In this document: positions 10,751-64,000 of the stretch, in pieces
How the letters are laid out: every line of letters begins with the position of its first letter
Numbering within the stretch: position 1 is the stretch's first letter
Source: Candidatus Poribacteria bacterium
GTDB taxonomy: Bacteria; Poribacteria; WGA-4E; WGA-3G
Assembly (NCBI GenBank): GCA_003635315.1
Contig: PYJD01000026.1
Coordinates: 1-64,000 of the forward strand
Reading direction: 5' to 3'
DNA length: 64,000 nt
The notes under the pieces: generated by a model
What the model saw: the letters and a program-made list of their open reading frames with translations, nothing else
The model's database searches: none
What the model was told of the DNA's origin: nothing
Program-made: the position numbers and the translations under genes

Positions 10751-10974
10751 ATACCATTTATAAATGAAATATCTCTCTTTGTAGCATAAAATGCCAGTTT
10801 GTGCTTTCATGTTTCGTTCCTAACAGCCGGCAATGAGATAATAAATAATACCATTTCTAAGAAATATTATGACATATCAATACCATTCACCCAACCTGGT
10901 AGGAGCGGTTTGGAACCGCTCCGAATTCAATATAACATGCGTATTTATGACACCTATTCATTAGAAATGGTATA
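10751..10974. repeat. Two adjacent shell-A repeat elements (GTAGca... and GTAGgagcgg... cores)
   Basis: 10751 ataccatttataaatg...tgtagcataaaatgccagtttgtgc...aataataccatttct, then 10846-10974 taataccatttctaagaaatattatgacatatc...ggtaggagcggtttggaaccgctcc...gcgtatttatgacacctattcattagaaatggtata. Confidence 0.8.
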
Positions 10975-11372
10975 AGGTTATCATCCTTAGAGAATAAAAA
11001 AATAAATACTGTTGATTTGTATTTGCTTAATAATTATCATGTTTGTTATGACAATACCTTCGCCAATAATAGACATTCTGTTAGATTGTGCCTATTGTCA
11101 AAACAGGTTATATGGTAATTAAAATACTTCAACGAAAACCTGAAGTTATTTTTATTCATAGAATCATACAATATTACAGAGAAATGGTAGATCAACACTA
11201 TGTTCTCATTCAACTGAAGCATTCAAAAATGGCGAAGGTATTTTTATGTATGAAGGTAATCCATACTATCTATTAATTCGTTTAGGAATGACACCCTATG
11301 CTACTGAGTTCTCAAAGAACTTGTTTATGGTTTGTCAATCTATTGATGCTGATCTTATAAGGGTGGTATGAA

Positions 11373-13490
11373 ATGAAAAAAGTACTAATTATCATAATCT
11401 TTATCATAGGTATAGCTGTCACTATTTGGCTATTTCGTTATCCTTCACCACCAGATCTCCTTGATGTGGATATGGCACAATTAAATACTACCCAATGGCA
11501 CTTACCAAATGGGGTGAAAGCACGTATCGGAAAGGGAACGGTTAATGACTTAGCGTATTCTCCTGACAATACGATACTCGCTGTTGCCAGTTCAACAGGA
11601 ACTTGGCTGTATGAAACAGATAGTGGAAATGAACTTGCACTTCTAACAAAAAATCGAGAAGGTACGATTTCTGTTGCATTCAGTCCTGATGGAAGAATAC
11701 TTGCAACAGCATGTGGAGATAAATTGGTTCGACTATGGAATGTTGAAAGCCGAGAACTTATGCACACTTTTATCGGGCATTGGAGAGTTAATATCGGTGT
11801 AAATTTCAGTATCGGTGTAAATTTCAGTCATGATAGAAAGACATTAATATATTGGAGTGATTATGGCATGCGTCTTTGGGATATAGAAAAAAGTGTGCAT
11901 AAAATGGATTTGAATGTACAATTAGATCGTCAATCTGATTTCACATTCCATGCAGATAGAATATCGATAGTTAATGGAAGTCACAAGACAATCCGATACG
12001 GGGATTCAGAAACTGAAACGAAGAAGGAGATAAATGATGCACATAAAGAGAGTATCACATGTGTCTCATTCAACCCTGACGGGAAAATTATTGCATCTGG
12101 AAGTAGGGATAAGACTGTCCGTTTGTGGAATGCTGAAACAGGAACATTGCATAAGACATTAAAAGGACATAGAAAACCTATCTTGAGTTTAACTTTCAGT
12201 CGCAATGGAAGTCGGATTGCAAGCACAAGTGAAGATAAAACAGTACGGGTTTGGAATGTTGACACTGGAAGACGGAAGCACACTTTCAAAACAAATTCTA
12301 AACATCTGCATAGAATCGTCTTCAGTCCAAACGGAAAAACTTTGGCAAGTTCAAGTTTGGATGGAATTATCCATCAATGGGATCTAAGCAAAGGGAAACA
12401 TAAGAATACTATTGTCGGACATGGTGGTGGGTTTGCATCAAAGGATATACTGTTCAATAAAGATAAAATTATTGCTGCAACCACTTACGGAAGTAATCAT
12501 ATAATTCTCTATGATTTAAACACTCAGGAAGTCCAGAATATACTTAAAGGTCATTCAAAACGTGTCAATTGTCTATCCTTCAGTTTTGATGGTGAGACTC
12601 TGGCAAGTGGAAGTCAAGATAAATCAATACGGTTATGGAGTGTTACTTCAGGCGACCATAAAAAGAAATTAAATGGTCATTATAAAGAAGTTTCAAAAGT
12701 GATGTTCAAGGATGATGAAACACTTGTCAGCTACGGTCATGACAATAGGGTTCGACTATGGGATATTAAAAAGGGTAAACAGAAGTCCAATTTTAAAGTA
12801 GATGTATTTAGTCAAAATATAGGGATCAATCCAGATGGTAATTTCGCACTATCTATGAATAGAGGCAAGGGTACTACAAACTATCTATATTTATGGGATT
12901 TAGATACAGGTTCACGTACAACTTTAACTAACCAAGTAAAATACACAACTCAATTATTTAATCATATACCACCCAGTTCAGATGGAAGTATGCTCGCATA
13001 TTGTACTGATTCAGAAATTGTTATGTATGACAGTACAAGAAAGGAGAAACAGATAATTCCAGATTATCCAAGTATGTTTAGTGTTTTTGCATTAAATTCA
13101 GAATCTAATTTACTTGCAAAGGCAGATTTAGATGAAAAAATCAATCTATGGAATGTTGATACTGGAGAAAAAATAAATATATTATACAATCAGTATATAA
13201 TAGGTGGATATCGTAAAGATAATGTACGGCAGGTTGTTCAGATTTTATTTAGTCCTGATGGTACAATCCTTGTAGGGGGGCGTGCTGATGGTGTAATCAA
13301 TTTATGGAATATTACGAGTGGTAAGCGAATTAGGACTTTTATGGGGCATGTTGGTCATGTCACTTACCTAAAATTCAGTCCTGATGGACAAACACTTGTA
13401 AGTTCTGGAATAGATGGAACAACCCTCCTATGGGATATGACAGAGTTATCTCTGAAAAACAATGATGGTAACATGCAGTTGGCTAACTAA
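11373..13490 (+). CDS. Membrane-anchored WD40 repeat protein
   Basis: N-terminal MKKVLIIIIFIIGIAVTIWLF anchor; TTQWHLPNGVKARIGKGTVNDLAYSPD module followed by many SPDGK..ASGSRDKTVRLWN WD40 blades. Confidence 0.93.
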   Translation: MKKVLIIIIFIIGIAVTIWLFRYPSPPDLLDVDMAQLNTTQWHLPNGVKARIGKGTVNDLAYSPDNTILAVASSTGTWLYETDSGNELALLTKNREGTISVAFSPDGRILATACGDKLVRLWNVESRELMHTFIGHWRVNIGVNFSIGVNFSHDRKTLIYWSDYGMRLWDIEKSVHKMDLNVQLDRQSDFTFHADRISIVNGSHKTIRYGDSETETKKEINDAHKESITCVSFNPDGKIIASGSRDKTVRLWNAETGTLHKTLKGHRKPILSLTFSRNGSRIASTSEDKTVRVWNVDTGRRKHTFKTNSKHLHRIVFSPNGKTLASSSLDGIIHQWDLSKGKHKNTIVGHGGGFASKDILFNKDKIIAATTYGSNHIILYDLNTQEVQNILKGHSKRVNCLSFSFDGETLASGSQDKSIRLWSVTSGDHKKKLNGHYKEVSKVMFKDDETLVSYGHDNRVRLWDIKKGKQKSNFKVDVFSQNIGINPDGNFALSMNRGKGTTNYLYLWDLDTGSRTTLTNQVKYTTQLFNHIPPSSDGSMLAYCTDSEIVMYDSTRKEKQIIPDYPSMFSVFALNSESNLLAKADLDEKINLWNVDTGEKINILYNQYIIGGYRKDNVRQVVQILFSPDGTILVGGRADGVINLWNITSGKRIRTFMGHVGHVTYLKFSPDGQTLVSSGIDGTTLLWDMTELSLKNNDGNMQLAN
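11793..11828 (+). repeat. 18-bp in-frame perfect tandem duplication within the WD40 gene
   Basis: atcggtgtaaatttcagt x2, encoding IGVNFSIGVNFS. Confidence 0.9.
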
Positions 13491-13562
13491 AATACTATAA
13501 TAGGGATGGATAGTTATTTTACAAGGATATCGTAATAGTGATAATGTAAGAGGGTATTACAA

Positions 13563-62118: not shown

Positions 62119-62431
62119 AAGATTACTGCTCCTTTCCTGCGAATTTAATACACACTCTTACTGTCCTAATTGTATTCCTACGAATTTTTTGGACAGAATT
62201 ATTCCACTTTTCTTTGAATCTATGTTATAATTACCATCGTTGTGAAATTTTAACATATCATGATATATACTGTCAAAATTAATCACTTATTATAGTGTTG
62301 AATGCATTGGTTGTTTTACTGTAGTTAACAGAAGAATTCCGTCAAAATAAGTGAATATATTCTTCTATCATTTATACCAATTTTTAGGTATCATTTACTT
62401 CAATTACCTTGTAGATAGTATTAATACTTGA

Positions 62432-63901
62432 ATGCATCTACTGGAGAAGCAAACTTTGAAGTTTAAAATATCGCGTCGAGAGTTTCTACGGTACGGATCA
62501 ATAGCTACTACATCTGCTGCAGTTGGTTTTGGATTTACAGGTGTAAGTCGAAAATTAATAAAACATGTTCCAGGTTTCAAACCTGAACCCCCTTACGCTT
62601 TTGTTCCAGATCCTAATCAACTTATTGATTTACCTGAAGGTTTCTCTGTTCACGCTTTTTCAAGAACGGGCGAAAAGATGGACGATGGACTCTGGGTCCC
62701 GGGTAAACATGATGGGATGGCAGCATTTCCTGGTCCTAACGGAAAAACCATATTAATTCGAAATCATGAATTAAAAGCTGAAGATAAGATTGTCGGTCCT
62801 TTTGGATGGAATAACGAAAAACTCAATCTCGTTGATACAGATCGGATCTACGATATGGGGTCCAATGAAGCTCCTTGTCTCGGAGGAACAACAACCCTCA
62901 TTTATGATACACGTACCGGTACTTTAGAGAATCATTTCCTAAGTCTCGTAGGAACTATTCGGAATTGTGCTGGGGGACTAACCCCATGGAATACATGGCT
63001 GTCATGTGAGGAGGCTGTACAAAAAACTGAGAATACCTTTGAACAAGACCACGGATATAATTTTGAAGTGCCGGTTACCACAACTCCTGGATTAGTAAAA
63101 GCAATACCCCTAAAAGCTATGGGACGTTTTAATCATGAAGCAGTCGCTGTTGATGAAAAAACGGGGATTGTCTATCAAACCGAAGATAGAAACGATGGGT
63201 TATTTTTTCGATATATACCAGATAAACATGGAGAACTCTATAAAGGGGGAAGACTCCAAGCTTTGAAAATTCGAGATAAGAAGGCTGCAGATACACGGAA
63301 TTGGAAAACCACACTGAATAAGTATGCTCCCTGGACTTATGACCCATATCCTCTGTTACAGGAACTTTCTGTTGAATGGGTAGATATAGAGAACGTTGAA
63401 TCTCCTGATGACGATCTTCGTAAACAAGGTGTCGAAGAGAAGAACGCTGCTATTTTTGCACGGGGTGAAGGTATATGGTATAGTGGGGATGCATTGTATT
63501 TTACCTGCACAAATGGTGGGAGTGAACTGAAGGGACAAGTATGGAAATATGTACCAAGTCCTTACGAAGGTACAAGTCGGGAAGATAAGAAGCCTGGAAT
63601 GCTTGAGTTATTTATTGAACCCAATGACAGTAGTCTTCTTGAAAATGCTGACAACATTACTGTTGCACCATGGGGAGATCTCATTATCTGTGAAGACGGA
63701 CCGCAAGATCAATATATTGTAGGGGTTACACCCGAAGGTAAAACCTATCAATTTGCTAAAAATGTCTCCAATACCTCAGAATTTGCTGGTTCTGTTTTCT
63801 CACCTGATGGTACTACGTTATTTGTCAATATTCAAACACCGGGTATTACACTTGCCATTACCGGTCCTTGGGGCGAAATCCGTCAACGACAGTTAGCATA
63901 G
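62432..63901 (+). CDS. PhoX/DUF839-family protein with Tat-like signal
   Basis: SRREFLRYGSIATTSAAVGFGFTG; KHDGMAAFPGPNGKTILIRNHEL, GGTTTLIYDTRTG, NCAGGLTPWNTWLSCEE, MGRFNHEAVAVDEKTGIVYQTEDR, FAGSVFSPDGTTLFVNIQTPG. Confidence 0.9.
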   Translation: MHLLEKQTLKFKISRREFLRYGSIATTSAAVGFGFTGVSRKLIKHVPGFKPEPPYAFVPDPNQLIDLPEGFSVHAFSRTGEKMDDGLWVPGKHDGMAAFPGPNGKTILIRNHELKAEDKIVGPFGWNNEKLNLVDTDRIYDMGSNEAPCLGGTTTLIYDTRTGTLENHFLSLVGTIRNCAGGLTPWNTWLSCEEAVQKTENTFEQDHGYNFEVPVTTTPGLVKAIPLKAMGRFNHEAVAVDEKTGIVYQTEDRNDGLFFRYIPDKHGELYKGGRLQALKIRDKKAADTRNWKTTLNKYAPWTYDPYPLLQELSVEWVDIENVESPDDDLRKQGVEEKNAAIFARGEGIWYSGDALYFTCTNGGSELKGQVWKYVPSPYEGTSREDKKPGMLELFIEPNDSSLLENADNITVAPWGDLIICEDGPQDQYIVGVTPEGKTYQFAKNVSNTSEFAGSVFSPDGTTLFVNIQTPGITLAITGPWGEIRQRQLA

Positions 63902-64000
63902 ATACTTCCTTCCTTCCATAATGTATGATATATCTCAAATATCATACATCGTCTATGAATTACATCTCATATTGATACTTATACCATTTCAAAGAATTAT

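Follow-up and report, generated by a model that had tools for sequence, protein, structure and literature searches.

Bases 1-64,000 of contig C26 (the window) carry short composite repeats in which a GTAG-headed hairpin of the repetitive extragenic palindromic (REP) type forms the core of an inverted-repeat shell. The contig belongs to a 4.33-Mb draft genome of Candidatus Poribacteria, a sponge symbiont, in 50 contigs with 38% G+C; completeness is 90%, and insertion sequences terminate many contigs. Analysis of shell A revealed that shell and core inserted together as a single unit, and that one shell accommodates several REP families while the same core recurs in several shells. These composites of REPs and miniature inverted-repeat transposable elements (MITEs) probably go back to a few captures, each then amplified by a DDE-type transposase acting in trans.

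Shell A and its core form one mobile unit

Shell A is bounded by terminal inverted repeats (TIRs) of about 30 bp that are conserved in two parts, TWATACCATTTCTAA-N12-CAT. A comparison of 12 arms from 6 subfamilies disclosed that positions 1-15 and the CAT at 28-30 are common, with little likeness past position 32, a bipartite pattern such as a transposase-binding end should have. When up to 2 mismatches were allowed, TAATACCATTTCTAA matched the window 22 times against 0.41 expected, and ATACCATTTCTAA matched the genome 1081 times against 178-437 for shuffled patterns. The exact 28 bases of the end were confined to Candidatus Poribacteria records in a search of 85,666 species genomes; its 15-base form occurred in 19/19 genomes of the genus, in few copies in a sister genus and hardly anywhere else in the order.

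Genome-wide, the lengths of converging shell-A pairs peaked sharply at 100-160 bp, whereas ends in reverse order gave no such mode, and 173 pairs of up to 260 bp were counted. The flanking triplets were identical in 82 of 124 pairs (TAA/TAA in 45, TTA/TTA in 37), compared with 51 expected from shuffled partners, and 14 of the 124 had mixed TAA/TTA flanks. Split by core, the TWA flanks were the same or different in 50 and 4 pairs for core a, 10 and 1 for b, 11 and 2 for c, 6 and 2 for h, and 7 and 0 for g.

The comparison of empty sites in related strains, which an earlier note on the window had proposed, yielded two clean cases in the nearest relative (G011), each lacking exactly the shell, the core and one triplet. 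Opposite the unit at C50:41761-41878, G011 reads AATATGTTA running uninterrupted into GATCTCATT, and opposite C38:25478-25595 it reads GATGATA followed directly by CCAACG, in both cases with a single triplet. Nine candidate sites were examined and seven discarded because the junction was too diverged; the orthologous intergenic regions around one gene of the window were too rearranged for comparison. Insertion of the IS200/IS605 Y1 type does not leave a 3-bp duplication with complete restoration of the empty site. The MITE-like nature that the earlier note had given to the shells is thus supported by TIRs of about 30 bp on a short non-coding unit free of genes, by the target-site duplication (TSD) and by the empty sites.

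Inspection by eye confirmed eight shell-A units in the window that are complete, a lone end, and a further unit that extends beyond the window edge. Most of the shell-A sites listed in the earlier note, and the four hairpins quoted there, were found again. The supposed copy at 32487-32603 was unconvincing, having TTTACCAATTTCTAA as its left end and no GTAG hairpin, and the unit placed at 47347 has its outer left end at 47329. The units are as follows, with lower-case letters for the REP families:

10749-10975, forward strand: compound shell A with an a core (GTAG at 10781) and a b core (GTAG at 10899); outer TSD TAA/TAA
18418-18537, forward strand: shell A with the c core GTAGGAGGGAACTCCGATTCCCGA (GTAG at 18466); TSD TAA/TAA
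23994-24178, forward strand: shell A with a head-to-head pair of h hairpins (GTAGGTCGGG; GTAGGTCGGGT..., 24032-24142); TSD TAA/TAA
28912-29060, forward strand: shell B with a g core (GTAGGAGCGACCTCCCGGTCGC, 28983-29024)
40510-40709, forward strand: shell A with two b cores (GTAG at 40562 and 40632) and a shell-D left end (40586) between them; TSD TTA/TTA
44640-44774, forward strand: shell B with e and c REPs head-to-head (44676-44737)
47329-47781, forward strand: shell A with a b core, a shell-D end (47421), an h core (GTAG at 47477) and a 34-bp tandem array; TSD TTA/TTA
49403-49519, forward strand: shell A with an a core (GTAG at 49435); flanks TAA/TGA
49611-49726, forward strand: shell A with an a core (GTAG at 49645); TSD TAA/TAA
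51719-51855, forward strand: additional shell (TATGGTAGA...TTCACCATA) with c and e REPs head-to-head (51756-51819)
51994-52221, forward strand: shell A with an a core, left arm and core tandemly triplicated (55-bp unit); TSD TTA/TTA
56791-56805, forward strand: lone shell-A left end
59441-59554, forward strand: shell B-like, with the l core GTAGGGCGAGGTCTCCTCGCCC (59496-59517), right end GTTCACTATA and a diverged left end
63979-64000, forward strand: shell-A left end at the window edge, continuing on C26 into a b core, a shell-D end, an h core and 34-bp tandem units

The shell-A units of the window occupy the spaces between long open reading frames (ORFs); only at 40670 does a unit overlap an ORF, at its predicted start. 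The same TWA triplet stands on both sides in seven of the eight complete units, the exception being 49403-49519. Unit 47329-47781 has a further left end at 47345. Its 34-bp tandem repeat, GACGAATTCCATACGCGGATTCGGCGTTGATTTG (47503-47683), adjoins h cores elsewhere in the genome as well. The three nearly identical 55-bp tandem copies at 51994-52165 show that shell-A units also expand locally.

Interchangeable cores and the REP families of the genome

Core counts refer to bounded end pairs (up to 260 bp for shell A), since a count based on single ends, with distances of 250-450 bp, proved too loose. A recognised core was present in 126 of the 173 shell-A units (a 71, b 16, c 14, h 11, g 7, f 3 and a few mixtures), in 28/30 shell-B units and in 26/30 shell-C units; the figure for random 130-bp windows was 51/3000. 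Shell A carries at least six GTAG-hairpin families, several of which recur in shells B, C and D: cores c and g are shared by A and B, and core f by A, C and D. The earlier note had held that shells and cores combine across families, a proposal that would have failed if each core were tied to one shell; the combinations found bear it out. It had also named shells that are never empty or never hold other cores as evidence against its proposal. In practice, shells are not found empty: among 79 coreless units or units with untyped hairpins (a wider set), 74 matched known core-bearing subfamilies by BLAST and the remaining five resembled chance pairs, so that no convincing empty shell is left. In an old shell-A subfamily, z (about 18 copies), the hairpin appears decayed. 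Relatives do hold the same shell with other cores, for example GTAGTCGCGCAATTCATTGCGCC.

Within each subfamily the position of the core is fixed, with unit lengths of 115-119 for a and 117-120 for c. Together with a TSD outside the shell, this constancy indicates that most copies are amplifications of an already fused unit. The earlier idea that several REP families inserted repeatedly into shells is accordingly not supported in that form; independent captures number roughly one per subfamily. Comparison of core c in shells A and B showed that the GTAG-hairpin alone is common and that the flanks diverge from the G of GTAG onward, as expected from separate captures of a REP-sized unit.

Genome-wide, 1058 REP copies from 11 families were found. 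A stem of at least 8 followed GTAG in 259 cases; for eight 4-mers unrelated in frame, used as controls, the counts were 2-154. By inspection only, the families b, c, e and g were judged to be variants of f or d that differ in the stem. The window contains no gene for a REP-associated tyrosine transposase (RAYT), as had been noted before: the four Y1_Tnp genes of the genome are confined to contigs C43 and C30. Three of them exceed the NCBIfam cut-off for the REP-associated tyrosine transposase, and the fourth (C43:33607-34125) is an ordinary IS200 transposase. Each RAYT gene has hairpins of its own on both sides: family d (GTAGGAGGGGATTCCGATCCCC) at C43:42809-43375, family f (GTAGGTTCGGTTTTTAACCGAACC) at C43:57489-58034 and family h (GTAGGTCGGGTAGAGCGAAGCGAAACCCGAC) at C30:30179-30778. 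In family d, 59 of 63 copies lie without a nearby shell end. Contig C43 (109 kb), with two RAYT genes and the IS200 gene, exceeds all other contigs in the number of GTAG hairpins and in G+C, and large d and f arrays surround its RAYTs. The cores are GTAG REPs, RAYTs are encoded in the same genome, and cleavage or mobilisation of the cores by these enzymes is putative. A further family, k (about 90 copies genome-wide, for example C33:39921), consists of GTTAGAGGGGTAATTTACACC...GTAGGAAAAAGTGTAACTTTTTC, a GTAG- or GTGT-headed palindrome outside shells A to D.

Shells B, C and D and the nesting of elements

Shell B (TTATAGTRAAC) has c+e dimers, g, a or e as cores. Of the evidence for this second shell, which had also been described in the earlier note, the short end TATAGTGAAC was not significant alone in the window (10 matches against 5.35 expected), while the genome-wide pairs were (41 against 5 in the reverse-order control). 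Its target duplication is unreadable because TA is self-complementary. The c/e dimer is common to shell B and the additional shell at 51719-51855.

Shell C, with the TIR ATGAAGATTAA...TTAATCTTCAT, formed 34 pairs of 100-148 bp (for example C42:27889-28014 and C34:83249-83363). It is located at the apices of palindromes or hairpins without visible duplication, and its flanks pair over a mean of 6.6 bases compared with 3.4 when shuffled. Among its targets are REP loops in hairpins of families b, f and a, GGCATTC palindromes and one apparent shell-A end.

Shell D, with the TIR CATAGGTGTCAAYTTA, spans 160-380 bp (for example C2:12016-12224 and C3:37413-37622) and is represented in the window by ends at 40586 and 47421. 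Direct repeats of 17-20 bp border it on both sides, their length being 19 bp in 21 of 28 cases; about four repeats of at least 15 bp would be expected from shuffled partners. The duplicated 19-mer is often exactly a REP hairpin, GAGCGGTTTGGAACCGCTC, so that each such insertion duplicates the REP. No coding relative of shell D was found. The A units that begin at 40510 and 47329 each enclose one of the two window ends, in keeping with their b+b and b+h composition. The mosaics are thus built by nesting in addition to capture.

Among the neighbouring genes, large ORFs at 11373-23779 and 53058-53978 contain many repeats with a period of about 126 bp (TTTAGTCCTGATGG...TTATGGGATGT) and apparently encode WD40-type repeat proteins. 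The ORF at 54005-54772 has a 21-bp coding repeat, AGAAAGAGCTGAAACCGCTGA, at 54574-54741. A 637-aa protein is encoded at 49779-51692, and 7-19 related copies per genome occur in all genomes of the genus.

Origin of the composites and comparison with known systems

In the explanation we favour, the shell would be a non-autonomous DDE-type transposon, shell A being one with a bipartite TIR and a 3-bp TWA duplication, and the core is one of several GTAG REPs from RAYT-associated families. A handful of times in the genus, a REP would have become lodged permanently in a shell and given rise to a subfamily; from then on the shell transposase, supplied in trans, would copy shell and core together into intergenic sites. 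Entry of the cores, roughly once per subfamily, was presumably by RAYT insertion or by recombination. The DDE identity of the transposase and its action in trans are likewise presumed, because a search for elements combining matching ends with a transposase gene found none.

Three findings weigh against this explanation. No transposase gene lay between shell-A ends in the 90%-complete draft genome; no RAYT adjoining family a, the commonest core, was found in the genome; and no locus was found with the same shell both with and without its core, so the capture step itself was not seen.

An autonomous relative of shell A was likewise found neither in the genome nor in the examined loci of relatives. 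Among candidates for an autonomous partner, TIR pairs with matching TWA at a spacing of 0.6-4 kb were rejected, since the ORFs translated from these pairs are ordinary genes between adjacent MITEs. Loci with PF13359, PF01609, PF13358 and PF13340 were rejected as the source, since TACCATTTC ends nearby belonged to separate MITEs or lay inside the transposase gene; the PF01609, PF13340 and PF13359 loci had no shell-A ends, and two copies have TACAGCGTATCTC as their TIR. A TWA target duplication is also seen in the IS5/IS1031 group and PIF/Harbinger. Shell A displays the 3-bp TNA/TWA duplication of this type; an IS5-type DDE transposase between matching TIRs was not found, and shell A was kept out of the IS5/IS1031-PIF/Harbinger family. 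It is left without assignment to a family, as no transposase with matching ends was found.

Rather than a passenger, the REP hairpin could be a module needed by, or selected in, miniature DDE transposons, so that HUH/Y1 RAYT and DDE chemistries would act on one element. This would explain GTAG hairpins in the unrelated shells A, B, C and D; we regard it as possible but unlikely.

It is improbable that palindromic MITE shells were standing targets into which RAYTs placed REPs independently, in many individual copies. Palindromes are known to be favoured by insertion sequences and REPs, shell C does insert at hairpin apices here, and efficient targeting would leave no empty shell. Independent hits nevertheless predict empty shells and scattered positions, of which none were found; the core position is constant within a subfamily, and the TWA duplications and both empty sites span the shell plus the core. 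For the bulk of the copies such targeting is largely refuted, although it is possible for the founding events.

Slightly less probable again is that the hairpin belonged to the transposon from the start (serving, for instance, in end-pairing, or as a terminator or RNA element), diversified by compensatory change and merely REP-like. A GTAG hairpin is present in every shell family seen, none convincingly empty, and in subfamily a, with members chosen by arms only, the core diverges less (0.097) than the arms (0.187; TIRs 0.073). This slow drift fits constraint or repeated renewal in one subfamily that perhaps includes units with other cores. Against an original part, the same hairpins occur shell-free in arrays around RAYT genes, as in most of family d, and the same core has the same boundaries in unrelated shells. 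Finally, movement of the whole unit by a RAYT or other Y1 enzyme, the shell being a long-TIR element like TIRYT elements (Di Nocera 2013), is highly improbable: RAYT-like genes with TIRs unrelated to REPs are on record and no DDE partner was found, but the 3-bp duplication with complete empty-site restoration was observed, and the three RAYTs here are flanked by REPs rather than shell-A ends.

The placing of REPs inside palindromic shells has a precedent in Anabaena variabilis, where GTAG REP dimers lie in long palindromes, none of which was found empty, and REPs also occur in other palindromic targets (Di Nocera et al. 2013, PMC3733652, section 7). Given this precedent, our finding is a richer variant of the reported REP-in-palindrome composites, whose features are present here: as with the GTAG-15 REP dimers in TATAGGA...TCCTATA palindromes, GTAG REPs sit in a longer AT-rich inverted-repeat shell, and REP-less shells were not found. 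In contrast to Anabaena variabilis, at least six REP families occupy one shell, the shells share cores, and the TSD and empty sites show that the composite is mobile. New relative to Di Nocera 2013 are therefore the several interchangeable cores, the several shells and the direct evidence of the composite as the mobile unit.

The GTAG head, the hairpin, the hundreds of intergenic copies and the RAYTs flanked by their own REPs agree with known REP/RAYT systems (GTAG REPs, REPtrons, REPINs). Here, however, many copies are housed in a second transposon and seem to have spread by its movement rather than as bare REPs or REPINs. Bacterial MITEs such as NEMIS, RUP and Nezha are similarly short, non-coding and intergenic with TIRs and a fixed TSD, whereas the interior is here an exchangeable REP. 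Insertion sequences that target REPs include ISPsy8, ISPa11, ISPpu9/10 and ISRm22 (Tobes and Pareja 2006, PMC1525189). Shells C and D resemble them in inserting in or at REP hairpins, ISRm22 likewise on the palindrome axis, but are short and non-coding, and C shows no duplication and D one of about 19 bp, often a whole REP, compared with the published 0-6 bp. No description of REPs or RAYTs in Poribacteria was found in open-licence papers.

How few, often single-copy RAYT genes yield hundreds of REP copies is unsettled, and several REP families riding inside a second type of transposon offer a concrete alternative path to high copy number. Because related Poribacteria hold the same shells with different cores, the capture, exchange and loss of REPs can be traced by genome comparison.

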